Shown: positions 16,037 through 30,487, numbered from the stretch's first letter. The stretch is 35,353 nucleotides of DNA from a virus (IMGVR_UViG_3300045747_000070:1-35353); one strand, 5' to 3'. Translations and numbers: made by a program. Notes: a model not told the origin generated them from the sequence alone.

Positions 16037-16040
16037 AAAG

Positions 16041-16587: not shown

Positions 16588-16592
16588 AAATT

Positions 16593-16970: not shown

Positions 16971-16976
16971 ATAAAA

Positions 16977-17068: not shown

Positions 17069-17073
17069 AAAAA

Positions 17074-17164
17074 TGGCGGAAGACGGAGGTATCGATCCCC
17101 AACTGGCTCATCACCAGTCCCACTGCGTTCAAAACAGGTCCAGTGCCTCACTGGATCATCTTCC
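17074..17164 (-). tRNA. tRNA-Ser(TGA)
   Basis: Class II, acceptor GGAAGAT/GTCTTCC, anticodon loop TTTGAAC, T-loop ATCGATA (A54), CCA encoded. Confidence 0.85.
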
Positions 17165-17165
17165 G

Positions 17166-17669
17166 TTAAAATCTTGCACGAACTTCTTCAATGCTGATAG
17201 GAGCGTAATCAATTTGCTCCACACTTACATTTATATATCTCTTATCCTTCAACGTATTTGCGTGAAGGTGTCCGTGAACGTTATGAAAGAATCTTTCCGT
17301 GATACATTCTGGATGTAGTGGAATGTGAGAAAGAATCATATCCTCTAGGACACGAACTCCATACACTTCCTTGAATCCAGCATCGATGTATTCCTTCGTC
17401 TTGAATATATCGTGATTGCCACGGACAAGTCTCTTGTTACCGTTTAGTTGAGAAACGATCCAAAGATACTTCTTGTTGATTACGACATCCCCAAGATGGT
17501 AAACCTTGTCGTCAGGACGCACTCTTGCATTCCAACGCTTGATCATTTCCGCATTCATTTCTTCTGCATTCTTGAAAGGTCGCAGGGGAGAACCATCTTC
17601 TCTCTTGAACCTAGTGCAGCAATTTTCGTGACCGAAATGAGTGTCACTTATGAGCCATGTAGCTCCCAT
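17166..17669 (-). CDS. Calcineurin-like metallophosphoesterase
   Basis: 167-aa dinuclear metal phosphoesterase. All family motifs are present: ISDTHFGHEN (residues 7-16), YHLGDVV (57-63), RGNHD, and in the C-terminal part LSHIPLHP and VHGHLHAN. Substrate not predictable; relatives include phosphodiesterases acting on nucleotides. An AAGGAGG five nt before the ATG is a strong ribosome binding site. It lies within the tRNA array and ends 1 nt before the tRNA-Ser(TGA) 5' end, raising the possibility of an RNA-end or tRNA-repair role, which is inference only. Confidence 0.9.
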   Translation of the reverse strand: MGATWLISDTHFGHENCCTRFKREDGSPLRPFKNAEEMNAEMIKRWNARVRPDDKVYHLGDVVINKKYLWIVSQLNGNKRLVRGNHDIFKTKEYIDAGFKEVYGVRVLEDMILSHIPLHPECITERFFHNVHGHLHANTLKDKRYINVSVEQIDYAPISIEEVRARF

Positions 17670-17699
17670 AATAACCTCCTTTTTCGGTTACATGTAAAT

Positions 17700-17774
17700 T
17701 GGCTCTCCCTCAAGGATTCGAACCTCAATTCGCTGATTCAAAGTCAGATGTCCTGCCAGTTAGACGAAGGGAGA
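17700..17774 (-). tRNA. tRNA-Gln(TTG)
   Basis: Acceptor TCTCCCT/AGGGAGA, anticodon arm TCTGA-CTTTGAA-TCAGC, T-loop TTCGAAT, CCA encoded. Confidence 0.9.
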
Positions 17775-17849
17775 ATAGACGGTTTTTCACTACTGTCATA
17801 CAGCACCATTTCTTAACGAATGGCAGTCATTACACCGTTGACTGATAAT

Positions 17850-17923
17850 TGGATCTTCCCCGTGGATTCGAACCACGATAGCAAACTTCAGAGGATTGCG
17901 TCCTGCCGTTAGACGAGGGAAGA
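17850..17923 (-). tRNA. tRNA-Gln(CTG)
   Basis: Acceptor TCTTCCC/GGGAAGA, anticodon loop CTCTGAA (stem with one T-T mismatch), T-arm GTGG-TTCGAAT-CCAC, CCA encoded. Confidence 0.85.
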
Positions 17924-17932
17924 ATAAAAACT

Positions 17933-18010
17933 TGGGGTGATTGACGAGAGTTGAACTCGCATAATCCCGATTCACAGTCGGGGTCATTAACCAATTATGA
18001 TACAATCACC
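17933..18010 (-). tRNA. tRNA-His(GTG)
   Basis: Anticodon arm CCGAC-TGTGAAT-CGGG region gives GTG. An extra 5' G at 18010 opposes C73, the His hallmark. T-loop TTCAACT, CCA encoded. Confidence 0.9.
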
Positions 18011-18023
18011 ATAGAAACTAAAC

Positions 18024-18127
18024 AGGATGAATAGTGCTATTAAGGAGGGATTCGAACCCTAGCGCACCGTCCCCATTGGACTCCCACTCAAGTTTGGCGA
18101 GTTAAATTGAGTTGCTGTAATCATCCT
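18024..18127 (-). other. tRNA-like element with a 7-bp closing helix
   Basis: AGGATGA (18127-18121) pairs with TCATCCT (18030-18024). A canonical T-arm AGGG-TTCGAAT-CCCT is internal, with ACTCAA/TTGAGT and GTCC/GGAC hairpins before it. No CCA. TTACAGCAA follows the first strand, a motif also seen after the acceptor at 16349. Not resolvable as a normal cloverleaf. Confidence 0.35.
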
Positions 18128-18131
18128 AAAC

Positions 18132-18209
18132 TGGCGCTCCTAGCGGGATTCGAACCCACGTACCAAGGTTGAGAACCTTGTGTCCTGAGCCTATCTAGAC
18201 GATAGGAGC
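18132..18209 (-). tRNA. tRNA-Glu(CTC)
   Basis: Acceptor GCTCCTA/TAGGAGC, anticodon arm CAAGG-TTCTCAA-CCTTG, T-loop TTCGAAT, CCA encoded. Confidence 0.92.
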
Positions 18210-18216
18210 ATAAAAT

Positions 18217-18293
18217 TGGTGCTAGTGATAGGAGTCGAACCTACAACATTGTGCTTCTAAGGCACACGCGACTGCCAATTGCGCCACACTAGC
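18217..18293 (-). tRNA. tRNA-Leu(TAG), short variable loop
   Basis: Acceptor GCTAGTG/CACTAGC, anticodon arm TGTGC-CTTAGAA-GCACA, T-loop TTCGACT, CCA encoded. Second TAG gene; variable region about 5 nt. Confidence 0.88.
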
Positions 18294-18364
18294 AAAACTC
18301 TCGGGGTGCTGTATTCACCCCTTCCCACAAAAGACGAAGATACAGTATCTTAAGTGGAGTACTC

Positions 18365-18439
18365 TGGTCGCGAAGGATGGAATTTAACCACCGACCAACT
18401 ACTTAAATGGTAGACGCCCTTTCACCGAGCAGCTTCGCG
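18365..18439 (-). tRNA. tRNA with atypical anticodon loop CATTTAA
   Basis: Perfect acceptor CGCGAAG/CTTCGCG, D-stem GCTC/GGGC, T-arm GGTGG-TTAAATT-CCATC, CCA encoded. Anticodon by position TTT (Lys), but position 33 would be A. Identity uncertain. Confidence 0.6.
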
Positions 18440-18444
18440 AAATT

Positions 18445-18516
18445 TGGTGGAATCGGAGTAACCTAATACTCTAAGGTTTAATTTCGCAGGAGCATCTGCT
18501 GCAAAACCCCGACCCC
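18445..18516 (-). other. tRNA-like structure lacking D and normal anticodon arms
   Basis: 72 nt with encoded CCA. Acceptor GGGGTCG/CGATTCC pairs 7/7, and a T-arm-like GAGTA-TTAGGT-TACTC directly adjoins it. The remainder folds as one long arm: GGTTT/AAACC enclosing TTGCAG/CTGCGA. More like a tRNA mimic than a decoding tRNA. Confidence 0.45.
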
Positions 18517-18522
18517 GTTGAT

Positions 18523-18601
18523 TGGTGCAAAGTCCAAGAATCGAACTTGGTTATCACGCTCTTCAGGCGTGCGCTGAAATGACCACACTAGCTCACTTTG
18601 C
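18523..18601 (-). tRNA. tRNA-Phe(GAA)
   Basis: Acceptor GCAAAGT/ACTTTGC, anticodon arm CACGC-CTGAAGA-GCGTG, T-loop TTCGATT, CCA encoded. Confidence 0.92.
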
Positions 18602-18605
18602 AAAT

Positions 18606-18680
18606 TGGAGCGGGGAATGGGAATCGAACCCACGAACAAATGCTTGGCAAGCATTGGCACTACCATTATGCGATCCCCGC
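18606..18680 (-). tRNA. tRNA-Gly(GCC)
   Basis: Acceptor GCGGGGA/TCCCCGC, anticodon arm AATGC-TTGCCAA-GCATT, T-loop TTCGATT, CCA encoded. Confidence 0.93.
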
Positions 18681-18686
18681 ATAAAA

Positions 18687-19064
18687 CTATTTAATCTTCT
18701 CTACCTTATGAACACCTTGAAGAGTTCCATACTTGACGGCTTCTTCTTCGGTTTCAAAAATCATTCTTTCGTTGGTTGCAAGATCAGTTAGATAGATCCA
18801 TTCATCTTCATCTACTGGCACTTTAACAATCCAACCACCTTTCTTCTTTTTAGCAACCTTTGGATTTTTTTGCTTTTCCAAAACTTCGTATTTCTTTTGA
18901 AGTTCATTTAGTTGCTTTTGAAGAAGAGCATTTCTTTCTTCTAACTTTGTCTTCTCTCCAAATAGAACATCATAATCACTCGCCTGAATTATATAGCCGT
19001 TGGCTTGTTCTAGAAGTCCATGTCGGTGAGAAACATGACAAGGCATTGTAAATCTTTTAACCAT
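18687..19064 (-). CDS. Hypothetical protein with central coiled coil
   Basis: 125 aa. A short N-terminal region (MPCHVSHRHGLLEQANGYIIQASDYDVLF) precedes a strong heptad stretch, residues 38-68 (LEERNALLQKQLNELQKKYEVLEKQ region). Then comes a lysine cluster and a compact C-terminal domain (WIVKVPVDEDEWIYLTDLA, FETEEEAVKYG). The C-terminal pattern resembles small phage domains displayed on coiled coils, but I cannot name it. It lies between tRNA genes on the same strand. Confidence 0.72.
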   Translation of the reverse strand: MVKRFTMPCHVSHRHGLLEQANGYIIQASDYDVLFGEKTKLEERNALLQKQLNELQKKYEVLEKQKNPKVAKKKKGGWIVKVPVDEDEWIYLTDLATNERMIFETEEEAVKYGTLQGVHKVEKIK

Positions 19065-19082
19065 AATCTTATCCTCAAATTT

Positions 19083-19157
19083 TGGTGCCCCAACAAAGAA
19101 TTGAACTTTGATTTCATCATTACCAATGATGCGTACTTGCCATTGTACTATAAGGGC
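19083..19157 (-). tRNA. tRNA-Thr(GGT)
   Basis: Anticodon arm CATCA-TTGGTAA-TGATG, T-arm CAAAG-TTCAATT-CTTTG, CCA encoded. Acceptor GCCCTTA/TTGGGGC has a mismatch. Confidence 0.86.
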
Positions 19158-19160
19158 GAA

Positions 19161-19649
19161 TCAGTATAAAAACGATGCTAGGACATGAAAGATTGTCGTT
19201 ACAATTAACATACCTAGAAACGGAAGGTGAACTGCGTGCCACCAAGAAAACAGTTTCTTAATTAGCGCACTTCTATCCACTCTAATATATAGATACCTTC
19301 CAATTACACCACTTGCGACCACGGCGATCATTGAATACAATGCGACATTGCTATTCGTTGCTCCAAGCCTGTAACCACAGTGATACATAATCATTATCGG
19401 TCCAAAGATTCCGAAGATTATGTGGACATCGAAAACCATTCTATGGTTTCCAATCCAATCAAACAATCTATGAAACCTTTTTCTCAGTGCATAAGAAGAT
19501 GCCAGCATCATTCCAATTGCACCGATCCATCCTAGTGCGTAACCTACACCCTCTCTTGGAGTGATGTAACTATGCAGAGGAAGAAACCAACCAATCGTAA
19601 ATAACACTAATGCGATAACTGCTACTATGAGTGTGTTGATTCTTCTCAT
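19161..19649 (-). CDS. Five-helix membrane protein with conserved His, possible heme binder
   Basis: 162 aa. Start set at ATG 19649 (MRRINTLIV) after GAAGG, rather than at the TTG at 19667. Five membrane helices: about residues 3-23, 34-56, 72-95, 102-125 and 137-160. His residues lie in HIIFGIFGPIMIMYHCGY and in WWHAVHLPFLG followed by IFHVLASF. This spacing, with the SNVALYSMIAVVASGVIGRYLY helix, resembles bacterial cytochrome b561/ferric-reductase-like membrane proteins. Heme binding is inferred from His placement. An odd cargo inside a phage tRNA array, probably host-derived. Confidence 0.75.
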   Translation of the reverse strand: MRRINTLIVAVIALVLFTIGWFLPLHSYITPREGVGYALGWIGAIGMMLASSYALRKRFHRLFDWIGNHRMVFDVHIIFGIFGPIMIMYHCGYRLGATNSNVALYSMIAVVASGVIGRYLYIRVDRSALIKKLFSWWHAVHLPFLGMLIVTTIFHVLASFLY

Positions 19650-19718
19650 GAATACCTTCTTAAACAAAAGGTATTTAGGTAGACAAAGTACGTTTTTGTT
19701 TAATACTTTGTCTGTTGT

Positions 19719-19795
19719 TGGCGACTGGTACGGGATTCGAACCCGTGATATCTACCGTGACAGGGTAGTGAATTAAGCCACTATTCTAACCAGCC
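19719..19795 (-). tRNA. tRNA-Asp(GTC)
   Basis: Acceptor GGCTGGT/ACCAGTC, anticodon arm CTACC-CTGTCAC-GGTAG, T-loop TTCGAAT, CCA encoded. Confidence 0.92.
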
Positions 19796-19802
19796 ATAAA
19801 TT

Positions 19803-19970
19803 AGGTGCATTCTTTCTATCGGTGGTAATTCGGCTTGAACCGTCACCCCACTTCACGACACAGAAAGACTATCGTGCTGCTAACGCTAGTAAGGCTTGAC
19901 TAGAACCGTCCCGTAGATGTCACTCTACTTCTCATCGTGTGGGCACACTATCCGCTAACAACGGAACGTT
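19803..19970 (-). other. Noncoding structured stretch, possible T-arm-less tRNA-like fold
   Basis: TCTTTCT/AGAAAGA (about 19868 and 19812) enclose a D-arm-like GTC...GAC loop with GG, and a CGG/CCG hairpin. The sequence TAGTCAAGCCTTA in it recurs in the 16359-16587 RNA (AAGGCTTGACTAG on the plus strand in both). Confidence 0.35.
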
Positions 19971-19973
19971 AAA

Positions 19974-20122
19974 TTTGATGTGGTTTGCTATTGAACAAAG
20001 AACTCGTTGAAGCCTCTGTTCCCCGAATTTACGAAGTTTAGCCTGAATGAAAGTACTAGTATACATTCAGAGCATCACAACAAAGCGTCATGTCCGCTAA
20101 GACTTACGCGAGCCACATCAAA
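19974..20122 (-). ncRNA. Structured RNA, 149 nt, closed by a 10-bp helix
   Basis: TTTGATGTGG (20122 end) pairs perfectly with CCACATCAAA (19974 end). Inside there is a 7-bp CTGAATG/CATTCAG hairpin. A T-loop-like TTTG-TTCAATAG-CAAA lies next to the closing strand, so it may be a tRNA-derived RNA with an insertion. Confidence 0.5.
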
Positions 20123-20125
20123 ACT

Positions 20126-20200
20126 TGGTGCTTGTACAAGGATTCGAACCCTGATAAATCTCTAATCGGGAGATCGTATTAGCCGTTATACGATACAAGC
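20126..20200 (-). tRNA. tRNA, probable Ile(GAT), with C33
   Basis: Perfect acceptor GCTTGTA/TACAAGC, anticodon arm ATCTC-CCGATTA-GAGAT, T-loop TTCGAAT, CCA encoded. Position 33 is C instead of T. Confidence 0.72.
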
Positions 20201-20206
20201 AAAAAT

Positions 20207-20280
20207 TGGTAGGACCAGAAGGTAACGCTCCTTCGTCTATGCATTATCAGTACATTGCTCTACTTTTGAGCTACGGTCCT
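20207..20280 (-). tRNA. tRNA-Ile(GAT)
   Basis: Anticodon arm ATGTA-CTGATAA-TGCAT, T-arm GAAGG-AGCGTTA-CCTTC (A54), acceptor AGGACC/GGTCCT, CCA encoded. Confidence 0.85.
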
Positions 20281-20473
20281 ATAAAAAGTTGGGATGGCTA
20301 ATTGTTCTCATTTTTAAGGTGAGTGTTTGCGCCGTCCTCCGTGCGGTGATCTCTCCGCTCAGTGTTGTAAAATTGTAGTAGGCTGAACACAATCTATTTA
20401 AACTGCGCTTCGATGTTTATCGGTATTTCTACCCGCAGTGCCTTTTACCTTGCCTCGCGCAAGACTACAAAAA
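20281..20473 (-). other. Noncoding stretch with tRNA-like fragments
   Basis: Contains TTGTAGT/ACTACAA (7 bp) enclosing 20373-20471, a GCGG/CCGC hairpin near 20340, and GGACGGC/GCCATCC near 20292-20336 around a CTCA/TGAG arm. No standard cloverleaf found. Confidence 0.35.
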
Positions 20474-20548
20474 TGGTCGCCTTTGTGGATTTCATACCAC
20501 ACTGTTCACTGATCAGGTGACTAGTCTATATCGTTAACTTATCAGGCG
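20474..20548 (-). tRNA. tRNA, probable Ile(GAT), atypical arms
   Basis: Anticodon loop CTGATCA in stem TCAC/GTGA, T-stem TGTGG/CCACA with loop TATGAAAT, CCA encoded. The acceptor pairs only 5 bp and the D-arm lacks a clear stem. Confidence 0.55.
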
Positions 20549-20555
20549 TTAAAAT

Positions 20556-20628
20556 TGGTAGCGGGATGATGAGTCTCACATCCTCTCTGCGGTATGAACG
20601 CAGCGTAGCAATCGTCTACTTACCCGCT
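20556..20628 (-). tRNA. tRNA-Met(CAT)
   Basis: Acceptor AGCGGGT/ATCCCGCT region, anticodon arm CTGCG-TTCATAC-CGCAG, T-loop TGAGACT, CCA encoded. Could be elongator Met or lysidine-type Ile2. Confidence 0.8.
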
Positions 20629-20635
20629 ATAAAAT

Positions 20636-20702
20636 TGGTGGAGACTCTCCCCCTGTCAAGTCTAGATTCGACCGACTTTCTCTATCCATCTTTTCAATGG
20701 CA
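20636..20702 (-). other. Degenerate tRNA-like remnant
   Basis: Ends with CTCC-A-CCA and has a GGTCGAATC T-loop-like core, but no acceptor partner pairs well. Confidence 0.3.
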
Positions 20703-20705
20703 ATT

Positions 20706-20779
20706 TGGTACGCCCTGACGGTAATGCTCCGCCTTCTTTGGTATGTAAAACCAAGGTAATGCTTCTATACGAAGGGCGC
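20706..20779 (-). tRNA. tRNA-Val(TAC)
   Basis: Acceptor GCGCCCT/AGGGCGT, anticodon arm TTGGT-TTTACAT-ACCAA, T-loop AGCATTA (A54), CCA encoded. Confidence 0.85.
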
Positions 20780-20786
20780 ATAAAAC

Positions 20787-20864
20787 TGGAGGATACGATT
20801 GGAATTGAACCAATACCATTTCACTTTATGAGAGTGACGCACAAGCCATTTATGCTACGTATCC
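20787..20864 (-). tRNA. tRNA-Met(CAT)
   Basis: Acceptor GGATACG/CGTATCC, anticodon arm TCACT-CTCATAA-AGTGA, T-loop TTCAATT, CCA encoded. Confidence 0.9.
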
Positions 20865-20869
20865 GAAAT

Positions 20870-20944
20870 TGGTAGTCCCAAGGGGAATCGAACCCCTGTC
20901 AAAAGATTGAAAGTCTCTTATCCTTACCGCTAGACGATGGGACC
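20870..20944 (-). tRNA. tRNA-Glu(TTC)
   Basis: Acceptor GGTCCCA/TGGGACT, anticodon arm AGAGA-CTTTCAA-TCTTT, T-loop TTCGATT, CCA encoded. Confidence 0.9.
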
Positions 20945-20953
20945 ATATAAAAC

Positions 20954-21052
20954 ATTGAGTCATGTGGAATCGAACCACTCTTGGCATTTGGATGCCTACT
21001 CCGCAGATTATGCGTCTCGGACTTCCCGTGCAACCACTACACTTCTGACTCA
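20954..21052 (-). tRNA. Class II-like tRNA gene without CCA, extended anticodon stem
   Basis: Acceptor TGAGTCA/TGACTCA perfect, T-arm GTGG-TTCGATT-CCAC, variable arm GGCAT-CCAA-ATGCC. The anticodon arm is about 12 nt too long (TCCGAGA/TCT-G-CGGA around CGCATAA). Identity unclear; no CCA follows. Confidence 0.5.
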
Positions 21053-21056
21053 AATT

Positions 21057-21131
21057 TGGTGCTCTCACTCGGAGTCGAACTGAGTTATCAGGCTTACAAA
21101 ACCCGCGCATCGCCGTCAATGCTTTGAGAGC
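21057..21131 (-). tRNA. tRNA-Thr(TGT)
   Basis: Acceptor GCTCTCA/TGAGAGC, anticodon loop TTTGTAA, T-loop TTCGACT, CCA encoded. Confidence 0.9.
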
Positions 21132-21141
21132 AAATTTAGCG

Positions 21142-21262
21142 CAGGACGCTCTTCCACTAAGCTACAGCATAGTTTTGTCGATCAACTCGCGCTTCCGCTT
21201 ACACTGTGCGTCCACAGAGGTTTGATCACTATGCCAGTTGGATTCGAACCAACGTCTTCCTA
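21142..21262 (-). tRNA. Candidate circularly permuted tRNA (2)
   Basis: Transcription order is: anticodon-stem strand TAGGA (21262-21258), AGAC, T-arm GTTGG-TTCGAAT-CCAAC (21253-21237), acceptor strand TGGCATAGT (21236-21228), a 54-nt linker, acceptor strand ACTATGCTG (21173-21165), a canonical D-arm GCTT-AGTGGAA-GAGC with GG (21162-21148), G, then TCCTG (21146-21142). The acceptor strands pair over 9 bp (two G-U) and TCCTG pairs with TAGGA. No 5' half lies upstream of the T-arm: the previous tRNA's CCA is 35 nt away. No 3' half lies downstream: tRNA-Thr starts 10 nt on. The break is in the anticodon loop. The linker itself folds (GATCAA/TTGATC). Confidence 0.65.
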
Positions 21263-21297
21263 CTAATCGATACGTCGATGTTGAAACCGACGATGTT

Positions 21298-21374
21298 TGG
21301 CACGCCTAACAGGATTCGAACCTGTAATAAGAGTTTCGTAGACTCTTGTGATAATTCCATTTCACTATAGGCGC
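21298..21374 (-). tRNA. tRNA-Arg(ACG)
   Basis: Acceptor GCGCCTA/TAGGCGT, anticodon arm AGAGT-CTACGAA-ACTCT, T-loop TTCGAAT, CCA encoded. Confidence 0.9.
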
Positions 21375-21381
21375 ATAAAAT

Positions 21382-21459
21382 TGGTGCGTTCGCAGGGATT
21401 CGAACCCTGATCAGCCTGAGTAAGAGTCAGGTATAATTTGCCAGTTATACGACAAACGC
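21382..21459 (-). tRNA. tRNA-Lys(CTT)
   Basis: Acceptor GCGTTTG/CGAACGC, anticodon arm CCTGA-CTCTTAC-TCAGG, T-loop TTCGAAT, CCA encoded. Confidence 0.9.
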
Positions 21460-21590
21460 ATTGAAAACTATGTGTGGTTTTTCGAAACACCACAAAACGG
21501 TGGAAGCTTGATCCACTATCACTGTAGTCGATTTACACCCTTCGGTGCCATCCCGTAATTTAATACAGACCAGACAGCGATACTATCATT
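21460..21590 (-). ncRNA. Noncoding stretch with a 66-nt element closed by a 9-bp helix
   Basis: TATCGCTGT (21582-21574) pairs with ACAGTGATA (21525-21517), one G-U. A CACC-GAAG-GGTG hairpin lies inside. No cloverleaf recognised. Confidence 0.4.
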
Positions 21591-21665
21591 TGGCGGGCAG
21601 ACAAGGATTCGAACCCTGACCGTGCAGATTTGGAGGCTGCTGTACTACCATTATACTATCCACCC
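21591..21665 (-). tRNA. tRNA-Trp(CCA)
   Basis: Acceptor GGGTGGA/TCTGCCC, anticodon loop CTCCAAA, T-loop TTCGAAT, CCA encoded. Its 5' end overlaps the end of the methyltransferase gene by 10 nt. Confidence 0.87.
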
Positions 21666-22327
21666 ATTAAAACATTTGCAATCTGCTCTCTAGACCAGAC
21701 GCACATTTCGCGTCTCGGAAACCCTACAAGAGCATCAGCAATTCTATAAAGCGGTTCTGGAAAATTGTATGGCTTATCAAACAAATTGAGAAGCCTGAAT
21801 CCACCAGTTACAATATCAAAATTCCCATTGTAACTACCGCCAGTGATATTGTTTATCGAATCACTGAAGTGTGTCGAAGTTAGAATATATTTGATATCTG
21901 ACTTCACAAAGTTGTTCAGTGCCATGAAGATTTCTTCTTCACACAGATGAAACAAACAATCTCGACACATCCAAAGATCTGCTGATGGAAGAGCGTCGCG
22001 ACAAATATCCAAATGTTGGAACTTAGTTCTTTCATTTGCATACTGTGCGGTATGCTGTTCAATCATGTTTCCGACAATATCTCCACCAATATAATTGATG
22101 TTTGATTCTTTCAATACTAGTGGCATCCATGTCATGTCGCCACAAGGCGCATCTAGAAATGTCTGCACACCGAACTTTCCAAATACAAGCGGAAGTTCTT
22201 TCCTTAGGTTTTCAGTGTATCTGATCGTGGATCCGTCTCCACTCTTCACTGGTCCCCAAGTACCGTGATTAAAAATGTCTGTGAATGTTCTTTCAGTATT
22301 GTTCATACCACTTTTATATACAAACAT
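21656..22327 (-). CDS. Class I SAM-dependent methyltransferase-like protein
   Basis: 223 aa. Motif I is FLDAPCGDMTWMP (residues about 57-69), followed by YIGGDIVGNMI (motif II-like acidic turn) and later SADLWMCRDCLFHL with EEEIFMAL. This is a Rossmann methyltransferase pattern; the DAPCGD form occurs in phage and surface-polysaccharide associated enzymes. Substrate unknown. The frame starts with ATG at 22327; ATG at 22306 is an alternative. The gene follows tRNA-Pro and its stop lies inside the tRNA-Trp 5' end, showing tight packing. Confidence 0.8.
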   Translation of the reverse strand: MFVYKSGMNNTERTFTDIFNHGTWGPVKSGDGSTIRYTENLRKELPLVFGKFGVQTFLDAPCGDMTWMPLVLKESNINYIGGDIVGNMIEQHTAQYANERTKFQHLDICRDALPSADLWMCRDCLFHLCEEEIFMALNNFVKSDIKYILTSTHFSDSINNITGGSYNGNFDIVTGGFRLLNLFDKPYNFPEPLYRIADALVGFPRREMCVWSREQIANVLMGG

Positions 22328-22344
22328 AATTTCTCACTTTAAAT

Positions 22345-22420
22345 TGGTCAGGATGAAGGGACTCGAACTCTTAACATCAACGCCCCAAACGTTGCGCTCT
22401 ACCAATTGAGCTACACCCTG
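22345..22420 (-). tRNA. tRNA-Pro(TGG)
   Basis: Acceptor CAGGGTG/CATCCTG, anticodon arm CAACG-TTTGGGG-CGTTG, T-loop TTCGAGT, CCA encoded. Confidence 0.9.
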
Positions 22421-22429
22421 ATATGATCT

Positions 22430-22458
22430 ATTATATAGGACATTTCTTTAAATGTCAA
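22430..22458 (-). promoter_or_regulatory. Sigma70-like promoter inside the tRNA array
   Basis: Minus strand TTGACA (22458-22453), spacer of 17 starting TTTAAAGAAA, TATAAT (22435-22430), 10 nt before tRNA-Pro. Confidence 0.72.
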
Positions 22459-22464
22459 ATAATT

Positions 22465-22560
22465 TGGTCCCCGATGAAGGTAACGATCCTTCCCGTTGTC
22501 GCTAATCTGGCAACTCTCGCGGGTTTATAAAACCCACCCGCACGCCTGTGCTATCGGGGA
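22465..22560 (-). tRNA. Class II tRNA, anticodon loop TTTATAA
   Basis: Acceptor CCCCGAT/ATCGGGG, T-arm GAAGG-ATCGTTA-CCTTC (A54), long variable region, CCA encoded. Anticodon TAT by position, unexpected in a class II tRNA; identity uncertain. A GCGGGT/ACCCGC pairing could lengthen the anticodon stem. Confidence 0.6.
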
Positions 22561-22567
22561 TAAAACT

Positions 22568-22670
22568 TGGAGCATCAGGTAGGATTTGAACCTACAGAAA
22601 GATACCTTTCACATTGGATCCATGTTACTTGGTTTGAGCACACCTAAATTGCCCTCTCACTTGCCGACGC
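22568..22670 (-). tRNA. Long tRNA-like gene, identity unknown
   Basis: 103 nt. Acceptor GCGTCGG/CTGATGC pairs 7/7 with G-U, T-arm GTAGG-TTCAAAT-CCTAC, a variable-arm-like ACAT...ATGT hairpin, CCA encoded. The anticodon arm is not clear. Confidence 0.5.
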
Positions 22671-22675
22671 AAAAT

Positions 22676-22754
22676 TGGTCTGAATGGTAGGACTTGAACC
22701 TACATGATGTCCTGACTCCAAATCAGGTAGCTTTGCCAATTAGCCCACACTCAG
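22676..22754 (-). tRNA. tRNA-Pro(TGG), second copy
   Basis: Acceptor CTGAGTG/CATTCAG, anticodon arm CCTGA-TTTGGAG-TCAGG, T-loop TTCAAGT, CCA encoded. Confidence 0.85.
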
Positions 22755-22764
22755 ATAAAATAAA

Positions 22765-22939
22765 TTTGTTGAGACGTTTCGCCACCTATATTCGAAACCA
22801 TTTTTCCCTTGTAATAAAGCGCGCAGGGTTAGTGGTACGCAGTAATAGTCAATACTTGATGCAGCCGATCCCACTGGGAAACCTCATCTTTCTTGCCGCT
22901 AATTAGGCGACAGATTTCTCGACATCTACTCTCAACAAA
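22765..22939 (-). ncRNA. Structured RNA, 175 nt, closed by a 10-bp helix
   Basis: TTTGTTGAGA (22939 end) pairs perfectly with TCTCAACAAA (22765 end). It contains a D-arm-like AGAT/ATCT, an anticodon-like GTCGC-CTAATTA-GCGGC and a GTTTCG/CGAAAC hairpin beside the closing strand, with about 90 nt of extra sequence between them. It reads as a tRNA-like frame with a large insertion. Confidence 0.5.
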
Positions 22940-22942
22940 ACT

Positions 22943-23019
22943 TGGTGGGTCCAGTGGGGTACGATCCCACAGCCTTCAGATTAAAAGTCTGCTGCTCTGT
23001 CCATTTGAGCTACGGACCC
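22943..23019 (-). tRNA. tRNA-Lys(TTT)
   Basis: Acceptor GGGTCCG/TGGACCC, anticodon arm GCAGA-CTTTTAA-TCTGA, T-loop ATCGTAC (A54), CCA encoded. Confidence 0.9.
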
Positions 23020-23027
23020 AAGTAAAT

Positions 23028-23102
23028 TGGTGGAGAATATCGGTTACGCTCCGATCTGGCAATCTGCTTGCAAGGCAAATCCGTGTTCCTAGCACATTCC
23101 CC
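23028..23102 (-). tRNA. tRNA-Ala(TGC)
   Basis: Acceptor GGGGAAT/ATTCTCC, anticodon arm TTTGC-CTTGCAA-GCAGA, T-loop AGCGTAA (A54), CCA encoded. Confidence 0.87.
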
Positions 23103-23204
23103 GAAAAGGCGAGAAGGGTATCGGTGCCCTCTCAAACGGCTGACTTGGAGTAATTCTACAAGAGACACTTCCTTACACAGCAGGGCAAGCCCTGTTTTTC
23201 ATAT
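23103..23204 (-). other. Noncoding stretch with hairpins
   Basis: Contains a hairpin GAGAGGG/CCC-TTCTC region near 23110-23137 and the plus-strand terminator at 23181-23199. No minus-strand tRNA recognised. Confidence 0.35.
23181..23199 (+). terminator. Plus-strand rho-independent terminator within the array
   Basis: CAGGGC-AA-GCCCTG followed by TTTTT on the plus strand. It is opposite to all neighbouring genes, so it would block antisense transcription. Confidence 0.6.
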
Positions 23205-23290
23205 TGGTGGGTGAAGTAGGATTCGAACCTACTGAGCCGGAGGCATCAGATTTACAGTCTGGTGTAACTCGCCGTCGTTACCGTTCACCC
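23205..23290 (-). tRNA. tRNA-Tyr(GTA)
   Basis: Class II, acceptor GGGTGAA/TTCACCC, anticodon loop CTGTAAA, T-loop TTCGAAT, CCA encoded. Confidence 0.92.
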
Positions 23291-23296
23291 GAAAAT

Positions 23297-23371
23297 TGGT
23301 GGAGAATGAGGGAGTCGAACCCTCGTCAATGCGTTGCAAACGCACAGTAATAGCCATTATACTAATTCCCC
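23297..23371 (-). tRNA. tRNA-Ala(TGC), second copy
   Basis: Acceptor GGGGAAT/ATTCTCC, anticodon arm GTGCG-TTTGCAA-CGCAT, T-loop TTCGACT, CCA encoded. Confidence 0.88.
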
Positions 23372-23675
23372 GAAAACTTCCAGTTGATGCCGTTTTGAAC
23401 TGACTGGATCAGTCCCTCTTCCGTAGGCAACTACGATCATGGTTAGACTCTCGTTCATTTCGCAGCGAGTCAATCGATACATTTCTCATTGTGATAGGGG
23501 ATTTCCCTCGTATCACTACCTTATGTATCTTCTGCGCCGTGGGTCATTGCTATCGCACGGACGGGTTGCTTTTTTATTGATGGAATGCCCTTCCTCCATC
23601 ATACACGCCCCACAATTTAGTGTAATCAGTGGGATATCGTTTGACTCGCGATTACTCAGCGTAGTCGAATAAATG
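23372..23675 (-). ncRNA. Structured noncoding region of about 300 nt
   Basis: No gene. Clear helices include GATACAT/ATGTATC (about 23475-23530) enclosing a GGG-ATTT-CCC stem, GATGGA/TCCATC near 23578-23601, and CAGTT/AACTG near 23381-23402. Located just downstream of candidate permuted tRNA 3. Class unknown. Confidence 0.4.
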
Positions 23676-23746
23676 GATGGAGTCTTAGTCTTTAGACCAT
23701 CAAGCAGTATAGTTGCCCTTGCGGGATTTTAACCCACATTTCCATC
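23676..23746 (-). tRNA. Candidate circularly permuted tRNA (3)
   Basis: Transcription order is: GATGG (23746-23742), AAAT, T-arm GTGGG-TTAAAAT-CCCGC (23737-23721), acceptor strand AAGGGCA (23720-23714), A73, a 6-nt linker CTATAC, acceptor strand TGCTTGA (23706-23700), TG, D-arm GTCT-AAAGACTA-AGAC (23697-23682), T26, CCATC (23680-23676). Residue counts match standard numbering exactly at every junction, and CCATC pairs with GATGG perfectly. The acceptor pairs 5 of 7 (two G-U, inner two mismatched). The break is in the anticodon loop. The preceding tRNA's CCA ends 9 nt before the 3' half, leaving no room for a normal 5' half. Confidence 0.55.
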
Positions 23747-23755
23747 ACGTTAAAT

Positions 23756-23831
23756 TGGCTGGTAGGACAGGGATCGAACCTGTGAATACGCGATTAACAG
23801 TCGCGGCTATTACCACTCTAGTCACCTACCA
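23756..23831 (-). tRNA. tRNA-Asn(GTT)
   Basis: Acceptor TGGTAGG/CCTACCA, anticodon arm CGCGA-CTGTTAA-TCGCG, T-loop TTCGATC, CCA encoded. Confidence 0.93.
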
Positions 23832-23838
23832 ATAAACT

Positions 23839-23913
23839 TGGAGCGTCCAGCGAGAATCGAACTCGCATCATGTGCTTGGAAGGCACTCATAATAGCCTTT
23901 ATACTATGGACGC
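23839..23913 (-). tRNA. tRNA-Gly(TCC)
   Basis: Acceptor GCGTCCA/TGGACGC, anticodon loop CTTCCAA, T-loop TTCGATT, CCA encoded. Confidence 0.9.
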
Positions 23914-25588: not shown

Positions 25589-26320
25589 TTAAAGAACCGG
25601 ATTTCCGCGTAGGCTGGATTCCATTGGAAAACGCTTGATCTTGAATCCATATCTTTCTAAATGCCTTCTGATGATCGATTCTGGATGAAGTCCAAATTCA
25701 CATTGGCGAACATAAAAGTTCAGATGATTGTATAGGTCACAATAGTATGACATTTCATTCTGTCCTCCTATTGCCATCAAGTCGCGAATGCCGCCATAGT
25801 GGTATTCTGGACTATCCACATTTGGACCTGTTGGAATCCAAATTTCATTATTCTCTGGTTCTATGATTGGAAATGTATGAATGTCTAAATCAAACCTGCT
25901 CAGAATAACACGCTCATAGCACACATCATTATCATTGGAGTAATTGTGTAAAAGTTCAAACCCTTGTGCCCTTCTGAAATTCTGTAAGAACACATTCTCT
26001 ATGTTCGTCTCTTCTACCCAAGTTCCATCATACGCAGTTTTGTTATTGTAAACATCGATATTCAGTCGCAGCTTTCTAAGCATTGGCAGTGTGTCGAATT
26101 CTTCTATGATACATGCCTTTGGTCTGTACATATCAAACATTTCATCCATAGAAATGTCATTGGTAAATGCATTACCCAATGCAGCAACGACATTCGATGT
26201 TGGAGTCCATGTGGAAATGAATACATCAGCATTATACTGATCTATTAAATACTTTTTTGTGTTCGCGTAGCAATCTCTTGCGCTGCGAATCTGCCCACTC
26301 AATATTAATGCTGTTCTCAT
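25589..26320 (-). CDS. Glycosyltransferase-like protein
   Basis: 243 aa, last gene of the RuBisCO-like operon. The start MRTALILSGQIRSARDCYANTKKYL and NADVFISTW are typical of a family found in capsule and lipopolysaccharide clusters. The central VILSRFDLDIHTF contains a DxD-like site (FDLD) for nucleotide-sugar and metal binding; GGIRDLMAIGGQNEM and LHPESIIRRHLE follow. It starts in an ATGA overlap with the GDPD-like gene. The donor and acceptor are unknown; it is likely to transfer the sugar made by the upstream enzymes. Confidence 0.75.
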   Translation of the reverse strand: MRTALILSGQIRSARDCYANTKKYLIDQYNADVFISTWTPTSNVVAALGNAFTNDISMDEMFDMYRPKACIIEEFDTLPMLRKLRLNIDVYNNKTAYDGTWVEETNIENVFLQNFRRAQGFELLHNYSNDNDVCYERVILSRFDLDIHTFPIIEPENNEIWIPTGPNVDSPEYHYGGIRDLMAIGGQNEMSYYCDLYNHLNFYVRQCEFGLHPESIIRRHLERYGFKIKRFPMESSLRGNPVL

Positions 26321-26751
26321 TCGTAATTTTCTGGAAAGTCAGTGCAGACACCTAATGCTTGGCTTACATCATCATCATACAATTCTGGCATGACCGCAAT
26401 GCTATTGCGAATCGGCTGATTCCCCGGAAACACCCACATATATCTTAGAGACGTAAATGTGACTGTATCAGCCTCATGCCAGAAGTAATTGAAGACAAAT
26501 GGGAATTGATAGAAGTAAAGAAGTGCGGCAACGTTCTTACAATGAATCCAGAGATTCTGCTTTCTCTTATTGAAGAATTCAAAATCTACTAGATAGTCTG
26601 GACCATCATGCCCAAGAAACAATCCATCGTCAATATACCACACATCAATTTCAACATCGTAGCCAGCAGCTAATGCTTTATCAATCTGCTCGGGTGAATT
26701 TTCAGTTTCCTTATTTCTTCCACCCATATTTCCACGATGCGAAATGACCAT
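26317..26751 (-). CDS. Glycerophosphodiester phosphodiesterase-like protein (compact)
   Basis: 144 aa from ATG 26751 (the frame is open to a TTG at 26784). It has the GDPD/PI-PLC barrel signatures ISHRGNMGG, a pair of acidic residues in YDVEIDVWYI and LFLGHDGPDY, then LWIHCKN. It is about 100 residues shorter than classical GDPDs but matches a compact family often placed in polysaccharide loci. It may hydrolyse or transfer a phosphodiester-linked group. Start lies 2 nt after the methyltransferase stop. Confidence 0.8.
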   Translation of the reverse strand: MVISHRGNMGGRNKETENSPEQIDKALAAGYDVEIDVWYIDDGLFLGHDGPDYLVDFEFFNKRKQNLWIHCKNVAALLYFYQFPFVFNYFWHEADTVTFTSLRYMWVFPGNQPIRNSIAVMPELYDDDVSQALGVCTDFPENYE

Positions 26752-26753
26752 TT

Positions 26754-27350
26754 TTATTTCTTCCACACAAATCCAACACCCCAATCGTCAGGGCAACGCT
26801 TGTCTATTACCCACTTTTCACTATCCAAGGCAGCAATGAAATCCTTTGGACCCGGATGATGATTGATATCATGCAAGCCCACAACTCCACCATCTGCAAG
26901 TAAGTTTGTGTATTCCCAATCATCCAGAACCTGATTTATCGAATGCCAACCGTCAATGAAAATAAAGTCAAACTTCTCGACACCAAAAGACTTGATAAGC
27001 CCCACATTCTTCTCGTAATCCGAGGAAGAATTTTTAATTGTGAAAACGTTCTTTTCCTTGTTGTCCAGATAGGTCTTATCATCGATGTCAATACCGACAT
27101 AGATTGTAGAGTCTAGCTTACCCTTTAAGAATGCCTGTGTAATGGAACGATCACCATTACGTGAAATACCGATTTCAAGAATTGCCTTTGCGCGATCCTT
27201 CATTTCATGAAACTTATTATCTACACCATAGTAGTTGCAGTAAGTCACTTCATCCCATGTGCAATAAAGACCCTGATCTGGATGATCTTGATCGTCATGT
27301 GTCGTGAAGCTACGAATGTCTTCCACTAAATCCTGTTGCCACTTCTTCAT
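26754..27350 (-). CDS. Class I SAM-dependent methyltransferase
   Basis: 198 aa from ATG 27350, which overlaps the RuBisCO-like stop as ATGA; the upstream ATG at 27365 is less likely. Motif I is AILEIGISRNGDRS (residues about 52-65), the acidic end of strand 2 is VGIDIDDKTY, and FDFIFIDGWHS with GGVVGLHDINH are motif IV/VI-like. The GWHS and HDI pattern fits small-molecule or sugar O-methyltransferases. I infer methylation of the operon's sugar product. Confidence 0.82.
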   Translation of the reverse strand: MKKWQQDLVEDIRSFTTHDDQDHPDQGLYCTWDEVTYCNYYGVDNKFHEMKDRAKAILEIGISRNGDRSITQAFLKGKLDSTIYVGIDIDDKTYLDNKEKNVFTIKNSSSDYEKNVGLIKSFGVEKFDFIFIDGWHSINQVLDDWEYTNLLADGGVVGLHDINHHPGPKDFIAALDSEKWVIDKRCPDDWGVGFVWKK

Positions 27351-28543
27351 TGTGCTAAACCCCATTTTTGAATTGCTTGTTGATATTCTATCCCGTGCGT
27401 GCCGTCGATTGCCTGTCGCATTGCTCTGGCACCACCGATTGTTCCCATTGGATGTCCGTGAACTGCTCCACCAACATTTGCCATATAATTCTTTCCTACT
27501 AGACCCGTAACCTTATCGACTAATCCGGGGTGAAATCCACAACTGAGTACTGGTGTTACGTTATGCTTCAATAGAATCTTCATTGCCTTCTTAAGTTCTA
27601 CTTCATCATCATCACTATAGCCACCACCAATCATTCCAGTCTGGATTGTATCTACGCCCATCAGCCCCGCGAGCATACAGACTACTGACCATGAAATACT
27701 GTACTTATTCTTCTTATCCGTAAAGACTCTATCACCACTCTTCTGAAAGTGTAGGAACATTGGAAGATCTAGCTTGCGAATGCTGTTATAGACTCCAAGA
27801 CCAGACCAGACGTTGATGTGTACTCCTGTGCCACCAGCATTATATACAGACTTGACACGATCTACTATTACATGTGGATCCGCATTAATTGTGTGACAGA
27901 ATACAACCTTGCGACTTTGATTTGCGAGATAGTTTGAAATCATACCAACGCGCTTTTCTAGTGGGCAGAAAACAGGATTACTCATAATCTCGTCTTCTTT
28001 AATAAAATCCACACCACCGTCTACCATCTGCTTTACCATATCCAAAAGTTTATCTGGTGTAAGACCAATCTTTGGTTTTACGATACTTCCGAATAGTGGT
28101 TTGTCATACTGACCAGTATACTTACGGAATCCTGAGATACCGTACTTTGGTCCGAGGAAATTCTTGGTAACACTCTTTGGAAGCTTCAATCCTACAAGTC
28201 TACAGGACTTAATAATTTCGATGTCTACATGTCCACCCATTAGCTGGCAAAGTAGATGACTAATGCCATCAGTCTGCCAATCAGTATTGATCACTGGAAA
28301 GGCAATCTTTACCTTACCATTCTTGACTGTACTAAGCTTGGCTTCATCACCAATGATCTTGCAGCTATAGTTTTCAAAGAGTTCATCAGATTCCCATTCG
28401 TTTCTGACGTTAGGATTTCCTACGCTCTGACCAATAGCAATATTCCATGCAGCGTCTCTCAGAGTAGTTGTACTCTTGACTTTGTATTCTGCTATGAAGT
28501 ATTTGCTCTTGTCTATATCACTCAGGTTTCTAAATAAATTCAT
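27347..28543 (-). CDS. RuBisCO-like protein (form IV)
   Basis: 398 aa, full two-domain RuBisCO large-subunit fold. It keeps GSIVKPKIGL (K156, K158, equivalent to spinach K175/K177), GGVDFIKEDEIMSNP with the carbamylated Lys and metal ligands (K182, D184, E185) and the phosphate loop NVGGAVHGHP. It has lost residues needed for CO2 fixation: LHFQKSGDR has Q267, K268 and D271 where RuBisCO has His294, Arg295 and His298. TIQTGMIGGG has Q301 for His327 and G308 for Lys334. LSCGF keeps Ser379 only. It therefore cannot be a carboxylase and is likely to act by enolisation or decarboxylation of a phosphorylated sugar. It lies in an overlapping operon with a sugar nucleotidyltransferase, cupin and methyltransferase. 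Confidence 0.93.
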   Translation of the reverse strand: MNLFRNLSDIDKSKYFIAEYKVKSTTTLRDAAWNIAIGQSVGNPNVRNEWESDELFENYSCKIIGDEAKLSTVKNGKVKIAFPVINTDWQTDGISHLLCQLMGGHVDIEIIKSCRLVGLKLPKSVTKNFLGPKYGISGFRKYTGQYDKPLFGSIVKPKIGLTPDKLLDMVKQMVDGGVDFIKEDEIMSNPVFCPLEKRVGMISNYLANQSRKVVFCHTINADPHVIVDRVKSVYNAGGTGVHINVWSGLGVYNSIRKLDLPMFLHFQKSGDRVFTDKKNKYSISWSVVCMLAGLMGVDTIQTGMIGGGYSDDDEVELKKAMKILLKHNVTPVLSCGFHPGLVDKVTGLVGKNYMANVGGAVHGHPMGTIGGARAMRQAIDGTHGIEYQQAIQKWGLAQ

Positions 28544-28546
28544 AGT

Positions 28547-28870
28547 TTACTCCACATTGTATTTGTCTTTTGGCAAGGATGGTACCTTGACCACAATCAA
28601 TTCACAATCTTCAAGGAATTCTGGATTTGCAATTTCGCCTTTTTCAAACACGAAAACATCACCAGCATTCAACTCGACATTCTGAATAACCATCTTGCCT
28701 CTAATGAGGTAATTCATTTCCACGCTTTCTTTATGGAAGTGTGGTGCCCAATATTCACCTTTCGCGTGTCTCAGGTACCCAACTTCAAAGTCTGCTGTTT
28801 TATATATGGAGGGTTCAAAGTCGCCTATGAACCAGCCGCGAACAAAGTCGCTTCCTTTATAGGTCTGCAT
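28547..28870 (-). CDS. Cupin-domain protein
   Basis: 107 aa, one small beta-barrel. Metal-binding motif 1 reads EYWAPHFHKESVEMNYLI (His, His, Glu) and motif 2 is GDVFVFEKGEIANPEFLED, in which the usual His is replaced, so metal binding may be weak. Such cupins act as sugar isomerases, epimerases or dioxygenases in carbohydrate pathways. It overlaps the nucleotidyltransferase by 14 nt and lies 3 nt before the RuBisCO-like gene. Confidence 0.85.
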   Translation of the reverse strand: MQTYKGSDFVRGWFIGDFEPSIYKTADFEVGYLRHAKGEYWAPHFHKESVEMNYLIRGKMVIQNVELNAGDVFVFEKGEIANPEFLEDCELIVVKVPSLPKDKYNVE

Positions 28871-29576
28871 GGTATTCCTTGATGTAACGTTCTAGATCTG
28901 CTGGAACGCCAACTGGATGATGCTGCTCATTTGGAATATGAAAGATTCCAACATTCTTACCTTCATCAATCATGTAATTAAACGATGGTCCGATATAGAA
29001 CTCGCCATTATATGCACGATCATTATTTTCGATCATTCTATTGGCACTGTGAACGAAATGCTTTCCCTTAGCCCAATAGTGAATGCCATTCAATGAAACA
29101 TTGCTAATGACTTCCTTCTCACGAATCTCGGCTACGTAACCATGTTTGTCCAATCTGGCATAACTGTTCTTTTCAGTATCAGAATGATATGTGACTACTG
29201 CACCGTCATAGAGGCGCACGTTATAAAGAAACAAACTGGAATCCCATGACATAATTTGGTCACAATTGGCAATGATCAATTCTTCATCATTAGCGATTTC
29301 ATCCGCAAAGAGTAATGCAGAACATGCTGGACCTTCTGTTATGTAATCGATAACTTTGATATTTGCAAATGGAACTGTTCCCTTAATAGCATACTCTATG
29401 TCTTTTAAGTATTCACTGTCTCTTAATAGAAAATGATAATGACCATCGACATCTAGGGTTTCTATTGCCCTTTGAATCATTGGTTTGCCGCCAATATCAA
29501 TCAGAGGCTTTGGTAATTTGTAATGGTCCGTGAAGAATCGCGAACCTAATCCAGCCATAGGAATAATTACATTCAT
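28857..29576 (-). CDS. Sugar-phosphate nucleotidyltransferase
   Basis: 239 aa, NTP_transferase family. The signature is at the N-terminus: MNVIIPMAGLGSRFFTDHYK and LPKPLIDIGGKPMIQRAIE, binding the nucleotide and sugar phosphate. ITEGPACSALLF, LIIANCDQIM (metal-binding D) and YNGEFYIGPSFNYM follow. It would activate a sugar or polyol phosphate as an NDP derivative. First gene of the operon, 46 nt after the promoter at 29622-29650. Confidence 0.88.
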   Translation of the reverse strand: MNVIIPMAGLGSRFFTDHYKLPKPLIDIGGKPMIQRAIETLDVDGHYHFLLRDSEYLKDIEYAIKGTVPFANIKVIDYITEGPACSALLFADEIANDEELIIANCDQIMSWDSSLFLYNVRLYDGAVVTYHSDTEKNSYARLDKHGYVAEIREKEVISNVSLNGIHYWAKGKHFVHSANRMIENNDRAYNGEFYIGPSFNYMIDEGKNVGIFHIPNEQHHPVGVPADLERYIKEYHADL

Positions 29577-29621
29577 TTAGAAATAACTCCAATCAATAAC
29601 ATGAGAATATCTATCTCAGTT

Positions 29622-29650
29622 ATTATAACCTAAACCATTAGACTTGTCAA
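29622..29650 (-). promoter_or_regulatory. Sigma70-like promoter of the RuBisCO-like operon
   Basis: Minus strand TTGACA (29650-29645), 17-nt spacer, TATAAT (29627-29622). It lies in the last codons of the DNA methyltransferase gene. Confidence 0.75.
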
Positions 29651-30487
29651 GCCGTTACTAACTCGCTTTCGAGCAATTTCAGCAAATTCTGGATTCAGTT
29701 CAATAAGAGTTGCATCACAACACAAATTTTGTGCAACTATGCCTGTAGTTCCAGAACCAGCAAATGGATCAAGGACAAAACCACCCGTTGGAGAACCAGC
29801 AGCAATACATGATATTACTAATTCCTCTGGATAAGTCGCATAGTGTTCTACACCGGAAGAGCGAGTTGGAACAGTCCACACGGAACGCTTATTCTTAAGA
29901 TCACCACCACTTACTGTAGGTTCACGAATAGCCTCATAATCGAAATAGTACTTTTCAGACTTCGAAAGAAGAAAAATATACTCATGTGACTTAGTGCAAC
30001 GATCCTTTATGGATTCTGGCATTGGATTTGGCTTCGACCAGATGATATCTTGACGTAGATACCAACCATCCTCCTGTAGTGCGAATGCCACCTTCCAAGG
30101 TATTCCAATCAGATCCTTATGCTTTAATCCGATTGCAGAAGCATTACGGTGTGCCGGTCTACGCTTTGTTCCACCAGTACCACGATGGTTTCCATTTGAA
30201 AGTGTTTGTGCTGGCATATGTGTACCAGATCGTTGTGCTGCATAGGTATCACCTAGATTCAGCCAGAGTGTTCCATTGTCTCTTAGAGTCTCGCGGACCT
30301 CACGAAAAATCTCCACTAGTTTATCTACGTACTCTTTTGGAGTACTTTCCATTCCAACCTGATCTTCCATTTCATAATCTCTGAGTGAGAAGTATGGAGG
30401 GGAAGTCACACAGCAGTTGAAATAATTACGCGGAAGCGTTTTTAGGACTTCCGCGCAGTTGCCGACTAGCACATTCACTTTATTCAT
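29630..30487 (-). CDS. DNA methyltransferase (N4-cytosine or N6-adenine type)
   Basis: 285 aa, beta-class order. The catalytic motif CVTSPPYFSLRDYE comes first (residues about 27-40) and the SAM-binding motif FVLDPFAGSGTTGIVAQ near residue 240. Between are TLWLNLGDTYAAQ and DIIWSKPNPMPE. TSPPY is commonest in N4-cytosine enzymes, but some N6-adenine enzymes use it. No partner restriction gene is next to it, so it is probably an orphan that protects phage DNA or alters expression. Confidence 0.9.
   Translation of the reverse strand: MNKVNVLVGNCAEVLKTLPRNYFNCCVTSPPYFSLRDYEMEDQVGMESTPKEYVDKLVEIFREVRETLRDNGTLWLNLGDTYAAQRSGTHMPAQTLSNGNHRGTGGTKRRPAHRNASAIGLKHKDLIGIPWKVAFALQEDGWYLRQDIIWSKPNPMPESIKDRCTKSHEYIFLLSKSEKYYFDYEAIREPTVSGGDLKNKRSVWTVPTRSSGVEHYATYPEELVISCIAAGSPTGGFVLDPFAGSGTTGIVAQNLCCDATLIELNPEFAEIARKRVSNGLTSLMV

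Follow-up and report, generated by a model that had tools for sequence, protein, structure and literature searches.

What a relative of RuBisCO might do for a phage is the question raised by a virus record of 35,353 bases from IMG/VR (IMGVR_UViG_3300045747_000070:1-35353), hereafter the window, by which the whole stretch is meant. Alongside phage genes for a helicase loader, an endolysin, a PhoH-like protein, an exonuclease and a homing endonuclease, the window encodes a RuBisCO-like protein (RLP) within a compact operon. Relatives in viruses and cells place this RLP in a conserved unit with a nucleotidyltransferase (NT), a small cupin and a compact GDPD-fold protein. From sequence comparison, we consider it reasonably probable that the four genes form a mobile biosynthetic cassette for a nucleotide-activated sugar or sugar phosphate of a surface glycan, on either the host cell or the virion.

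The RuBisCO-like protein and its active site

The first-pass annotation had called a full-length RuBisCO-like protein at 27347-28543, and this call stands. The protein matches the Pfam RuBisCO large-chain profile (RuBisCO_large, PF00016, E-value 6.4e-39), and its large-chain catalytic domain and fold place it in the RuBisCO superfamily. An AlphaFold2 (AF2) model, built from an alignment of 47 sequences with a predicted local distance difference test (pLDDT) score of 94.5, aligns with form III RuBisCO (2cwx) at Z 44.9 and a root-mean-square deviation of 2.0 Å over 380 residues, and with the Geobacillus DK-MTP-1P enolase (2oem) at Z 44.5 (2.2 Å, 368 residues). Since these two matches are tied, the fold alone gives the protein no subfamily, and the IV-Photo structures 1tel, 1ykw and 2qyg, at Z of about 42, have a score that does not discriminate.

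In maximum-likelihood trees sampled from forms I, II and III, OiaX/NonPhoto-like proteins, MtnW and DeepYkr, and leaving out IV-Photo and the environmental groups derived from Global Ocean Sampling (GOS), the window RLP clade has 100/100 support and is separate from each group as sampled. A 100/99 branch parts forms I/II/III from the RLP side, where the clade lies, so the tree that had been suggested as a check does not put the protein with the carboxylases. The RLP reaches no NCBIfam equivalog cut-off and scores far under those for MtnW (155.7 vs 409) and OiaX (155.8 vs 700), while its separation from DeepYkr comes from the tree alone. A family hidden Markov model gives at least 460 bits to full-length members and at most 248 bits to the closest non-members, and the ratio of nonsynonymous to synonymous substitution rates (dN/dS) in close gene pairs is 0.03-0.23, as for a constrained protein. 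RuBisCO homologue groups without placement were reported in the GOS paper (PMC1821046). L145 and L146, RuBisCO homologues of alphaproteobacterial genomes, group with form I yet are without the KDDE metal motif.

A closer look at the active site drew on 74 family sequences, 60 viral and 14 cellular, in spinach numbering. K175, K177, K201, D203, E204, S379, G381 and G403 are invariant in all 74 relatives and G404 is nearly so, while seven positions are changed in every one of them (E60 to G, S61 to Q, T65 to N, N123 to G, H294 to Q, K334 to Y, and G380 to C). In the window protein the metal site, K182, D184 and E185, is kept, and H294, R295, H298, H327 and K334 are replaced by Q267, K268, D271, Q301 and Y309. 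The first-pass annotation had described both features; the metal site is indeed kept, with K175 and K177 in addition, and the five replacements are present in the window protein, although the one at H327 does not hold for the family. This position is His in 14/14 cellular and 29/60 viral relatives, so that its change in the window is not diagnostic. K177 is absent from the sampled MtnW, OiaX and DeepYkr proteins, and the window RLP family thus retains more of the RuBisCO metal and base site, while the carboxylation residues are gone. Because E60, N123, H294 and K334 are changed across all sampled members, carboxylation by this family is judged very unlikely. By its sequence the protein is classed as a form IV-type RLP in the broad sense, a RuBisCO homologue without the carboxylation residue set, in agreement with the non-carboxylating assignment first given to it.

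These residues also bear on whether the gene could be a virus-encoded carbon-fixation RuBisCO, that is, an rbcL auxiliary metabolic gene. Published work ascribes carbon fixation to rbcL genes carried by viruses (PMC12615777; PMC8506154), the rbcL genes of viruses were found in a landfill study to group with ‘RbcL-like’ proteins and to occur in random IMG/VR viruses as well (PMC12607003), and the kept metal site, K175 and K177 would suit such a role. Carbon fixation nevertheless has virtually no probability here, given that the four residues named above (K334 becoming Tyr) are lost in 74/74 sequences, that the tree position is outside forms I-III, and that the context is one of glycan genes, with rbcS or phosphoribulokinase not noticed among the neighbours. 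Among the viral “rbcL” genes published as carbon-fixation genes, some may instead belong to the window RLP family. Scans of IMG/VR contigs for forms I, II and III, OiaX and MtnW confirmed none, using two short peptide patterns each and no positive control, so that misses are possible.

A four-gene unit shared by phages and cells

The RLP gene lies third in a tightly packed operon of six open reading frames (ORFs), all on the minus strand and separated by overlaps of 4-14 nucleotides (nt) or gaps of 2-3 nt, as had been noted at first pass:

28857..29576, minus strand: NT of sugar-phosphate type, 239 amino acids
28547..28870, minus strand: small cupin, 107 amino acids, overlapping NT by 14 nt
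27347..28543, minus strand: RLP, 398 amino acids, 3-nt gap after the cupin
26754..27350, minus strand: class I S-adenosylmethionine-dependent methyltransferase (MT), 4-nt ATGA overlap with the RLP
26317..26751, minus strand: compact GDPD-fold protein, about 145 amino acids, 2-nt gap after MT
25589..26320, minus strand: putative glycosyltransferase (last ORF), 4-nt overlap with the GDPD
29621..29628, minus strand: TTATAATA box, read in the sequence within the 53-nt gap upstream of NT, candidate promoter

The most likely start of MT is ATG 27350, overlapping the RLP stop, and that of the GDPD is ATG 26751; a promoter role for the box upstream of NT is possible. An N6/N4 DNA methylase gene resembling those of cyanophages lies directly upstream of the operon (29630-30487, minus strand), and the matches listed in a DNA-level search with the operon region were confined to this gene.

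To define the conserved unit, 76 nonredundant loci were compared, with full flanks (at least 2.5 kb on each side) in 51 viral and 10 cellular loci. In the viral full-flank loci NT is present in 49/51, cupin in 43/51 and GDPD in 42/51, while the window MT family occurs in 24/51, being replaced elsewhere by an FkbM-type enzyme or absent, and the putative glycosyltransferase family in 31/51. The cellular full-flank loci have NT in 10/10, GDPD in 8/10 and cupin in 3/10, and the commonest gene order overall is NT-cupin-RLP-GDPD (28/61). Whole viral records carry the compact GDPD in 17 of 20 and the cupin in 17 of 20, nearly always adjoining the RLP and as one copy of each per record, save for one weak second cupin match; on one contig (L051) the GDPD is about 30 kb from the RLP. 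From the locus counts and the whole-contig copies, the MT and glycosyltransferase-like genes are accessories, and the conserved unit is the four genes NT, cupin, RLP and GDPD. The idea that the operon would be conserved elsewhere therefore stood for these four genes and not for the two variable ones. With these neighbours recurring in dozens of diverged loci and a low RLP dN/dS, the arrangement is not a product of chance. Extended short-chain dehydrogenase/reductase (SDR) epimerase/dehydratase genes are found within the operons at 26/75 loci and glycosyltransferase-like genes at 33/75.

The RLP family is widespread in viral metagenomes. Successive IMG/VR scans returned 4 loci, then 62 with an alignment-based search, and 332 contigs with a relative in a broader tblastn search, so that at least 332 contigs, not deduplicated, carry the family; a tblastn search of 50,697 GenBank phage records gave no match. 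T4-type portal genes are present on 6/20 viral carrier contigs, among them contigs of 400, 187 and 151 kb, and at least those carriers are tailed phages. Contamination was considered as an explanation for the viral carriers and rejected on account of the same portal genes.

The operon had been presented as a phage feature, and this did not hold, as the cassette also occurs in cells. Relatives were found in SAR11 single cells and genomes, Nanoarchaeia/Pacearchaeota, Verrucomicrobia, Elusimicrobia, Azospirillum and three Legionella species, some on contigs of more than 100 kb. The family is sporadic in the SAR11 order, where a profile search was positive in 2/247 sampled genomes. Four cellular contigs (the short L064, L074 and L084, together with L080) could be viral DNA binned in error and count for little in the case for cellular carriers.

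The cellular copies in SAR11, nanoarchaea, Elusimicrobia, Azospirillum and Legionella often sit within surface-glycan loci. One SAR11 cassette (L066) lies among O-antigen-type flippase, polymerase-like, epimerase and glycosyltransferase-like genes, and another (L068) beside rmlB, rmlA, aminotransferase and flippase-like genes; apart from the epimerase, these neighbours were identified by eye. LicD (Pfam, 1e-42) adjoins RLP-NT in the three Legionella species and was seen near the RLP in no other locus examined. Together with the conserved NT, these loci support a role in activating sugars and building glycans, as the first-pass annotation had read from the window sequence. Of the decoration targets it had named (DNA, virion or host envelope), the cellular copies point to a surface glycan and not to DNA. 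DNA glycosylation is common among phages, and with a DNA methylase directly upstream, the activated sugar might be put on phage DNA as a hypermodification; yet this is quite improbable, as cellular genomes carry the same cassette in surface-glycan loci and the methylase is outside the conserved set.

Partner proteins and a proposed route to an activated sugar

The NT carries the GxGxRF..PKPLI loop and an NTP-transferase domain, which characterize sugar-1-phosphate nucleotidyltransferases. Its NTP_transf_3 match (1.2e-5) is just below the Pfam cut-off in the window and above it in cyanophage relatives, and there are weak matches to archaeal GlmU/RmlA/HddC-like proteins and a match to PDB 4evw (2.3e-9). 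In SAR11 and a nanoarchaeon the GDPD is joined by a second NT-like protein, degenerate and changed in its GxGxRF/PK loop (L072, 7226-7963; L075, 7231-7971; L076, 11283-11903).

Relatives of the NT also occur in cultured Kyanoviridae and S-SKS1, phages without the RLP, at 28-41% identity. In several cyanophages the NT is fused to another enzyme: HAD phosphatase in S-CAM9 and B23 (HAD-NT, L229, 5341-6726), RpiB/LacAB in SynMITS9220M01 (NT-RpiB, L230, 4826-5983), and DHBP synthase in S-SKS1 (L234, 5001-6428), all of which act on sugar or pentose phosphates. Several of these phages also encode the compact GDPD and/or a cupin, the GDPD being present in most of them, and the fusions sit in clusters of epimerase and glycosyltransferase genes; their record annotations read phosphatase, DHBP synthase or pyrophosphorylase. 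Taken as fusion evidence, the cyanophages suggest that different enzymes acting on a small sugar phosphate can stand in for one another as the NT partner, a position that the RLP would hold in the window.

The cupin matches Cupin_7 (3.4e-5) and Cupin_2 (6.4e-5), both under the Pfam cut-off, and phrog_24762 (6e-34). Its first motif, HxHx4Ex6G, is canonical and kept, and the usual second motif is without His. The pairing of an RLP with a cupin recalls sulfur or methionine salvage, in which a DeepYkr RLP and a cupin methylsulfurylase of Rhodospirillum and Rhodopseudomonas take methylthioribulose-1-phosphate through methylthioxylulose-5-phosphate to deoxyxylulose 5-phosphate (DXP); R. palustris and R. 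rubrum have an RLP-cupin pair with these activities (PMC5893883). Such a function is highly unlikely for the window operon, whose RLP clade and many catalytic positions differ from DeepYkr and where NT, GDPD and glycan genes surround the RLP. A profile of the window cupin gave no hit near the sampled DeepYkr loci, where cupin-motif ORFs likewise went unseen, so this comparison is uninformative.

MT matches Methyltransf_24 (6.1e-6, above cut-off). Pfam and NCBIfam gave no call for the GDPD or the last ORF, and a weak DUF6179 match (0.097) was disregarded. The GDPD matches phrog_34507 (1.3e-30), and the top structural matches of its AF2 model (pLDDT 96.2) are GDPD or PLD-type chains, with Z up to 10.9 (3.2 Å, 138 residues); the first fold of another kind comes at 6.5. 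Its HR..EN..E.D..HD signature is intact and aligns with that of canonical GDPDs near the RLP in L076 and L077. The modeled fold and the catalytic signature thus support its assignment to the GDPD family, as first labeled, while the glycosyltransferase label of the last ORF is unproven. A Homavirus giant-virus protein annotated as an FkbM methyltransferase (BFVD A0A3G5A5B5) contains a compact GDPD domain with 37% identity to the window protein, and in L003 the genes for an FkbM methyltransferase and the compact GDPD lie side by side, adjoining the RLP. A GDPD fold, and a PhoH-like gene elsewhere in the window, could also fit scavenging, where GDPD and RLP would degrade glycerophosphodiesters and sugar phosphates to free phosphate or carbon during infection. 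We find this decidedly unlikely, as the most constant partner is the NT (49/51 and 10/10), which fits activation over breakdown, and the recurrent neighbours include no phosphatase or transporter.

For a cassette that builds an activated sugar, we infer the chemical steps, substrate, product and place of attachment from the computed clade, residue conservation, fold, gene linkage and glycan-locus context. The RLP would bind Mg2+ at a carbamylated Lys182 with Asp184 and Glu185, and Lys156 is proposed to act as the base that forms the enediol(ate) of a phosphorylated keto-sugar. In place of carboxylation, the RLP would then finish an isomerisation, epimerisation or elimination. The cupin would probably act on an intermediate as an isomerase or epimerase, the NT would activate the sugar phosphate made by the RLP, and the GDPD may hydrolyse a phosphodiester, either to supply substrate or to trim the donor. 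The product is probably a short-chain (C4-C5) activated sugar or sugar phosphate, which the variable MT and transferase genes could tailor and attach.

Several points weigh against this proposal. The nucleotide and sugar specificity of the NT is not legible from its sequence, and no conserved reductase or kinase completes one defined pathway. The cupin is absent nearby in the Legionella, SAR11 and nanoarchaeal copies, and the Legionella copies are also without a nearby GDPD, so the cupin and GDPD steps are not universal. The glycosyltransferase label is weak as well: the last ORF belongs to phrog_13607, of unknown function, with no glycosyltransferase family match above cut-off, and its relatives (n = 12) match WavE weakly in one case (0.0013) and DUF7796 in three (best 0.00037).

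Elsewhere in the window, 29 tRNA genes lie at 14220-23913, all on the minus strand and including three tRNA-Pro(tgg) predictions. A nicotinamide phosphoribosyltransferase gene (phrog_448, 6.6e-167) adjoins one for a cytidyltransferase/Nudix-type protein (phrog_395, 2.6e-74) at 10455-12962 on the minus strand, and the two resemble a pair for NAD+ salvage in the phage.

Significance and comparison with known systems

To our knowledge, the RLP functions known so far are salvage or catabolic, so that the cassette, if the proposal is true, would provide the first RLP linked to building an activated sugar. It would also offer a testable four-gene pathway in phages and some abundant ocean bacteria, and E60G, N123G, H294Q and K334Y serve as residue rules to spot viral RuBisCO homologues that are not countable as carbon-fixation genes. 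Open-licence papers on viral RLPs, RLPs in polysaccharide loci and the EnvOnly/IV-GOS groups gave no account of the cassette, in line with the initial impression that no phage pathway of this composition has been described. It is possible, though we stop short of calling it probable, that the RLP clade as a whole, which is common in tailed phages and turns up sporadically among bacteria and archaea, is devoted to the biosynthesis of an activated sugar not yet described, that it serves as one of several interchangeable sugar-phosphate modules supplying a shared NT-cupin-GDPD core, and that it lies behind many viral ‘rbcL’ genes at present taken for carbon-fixation genes.

Among known systems, MtnW (form IV-YkrW), the 2,3-diketo-5-methylthiopentyl-1-phosphate enolase, shares the RuBisCO fold, the carbamate Lys/Asp/Glu metal site and the same side of the tree, but differs in clade and gene context, and the sampled MtnW proteins are without the K177 that the window RLP family keeps. 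The OiaX and IV-NonPhoto RLPs (3-oxo-isoapionate-4-phosphate decarboxylase; 3nwr-like) likewise act on sugar-acid or sugar phosphates; their sampled members, however, retain K334, R295 and H294, and their neighbours are of a catabolic type (for example an ABC transporter, a four-carbon acid sugar kinase or aldo/keto reductases). In the methylthioadenosine (MTA)-isoprenoid shunt, as in the window, an RLP adjoins a cupin, there the DeepYkr RLP and the methylsulfurylase (PMC5893883), but that RLP belongs to a separate clade and the pair to sulfur salvage, not sugar activation. A further likeness comes from the LicD-family gene beside RLP-NT in the three Legionella genomes. LicC/LicD carry out phospho-alcohol activation and transfer, and the known Lic system does not include an RLP. 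The cyanophage NT fusions of SynMITS9220M01, S-SKS1 and S-CAM9 are similar in having an NT with 33-41% identity over nearly its full length and a sugar-phosphate partner enzyme; they have no RLP, and the partner position is filled by other sugar-phosphate enzymes.

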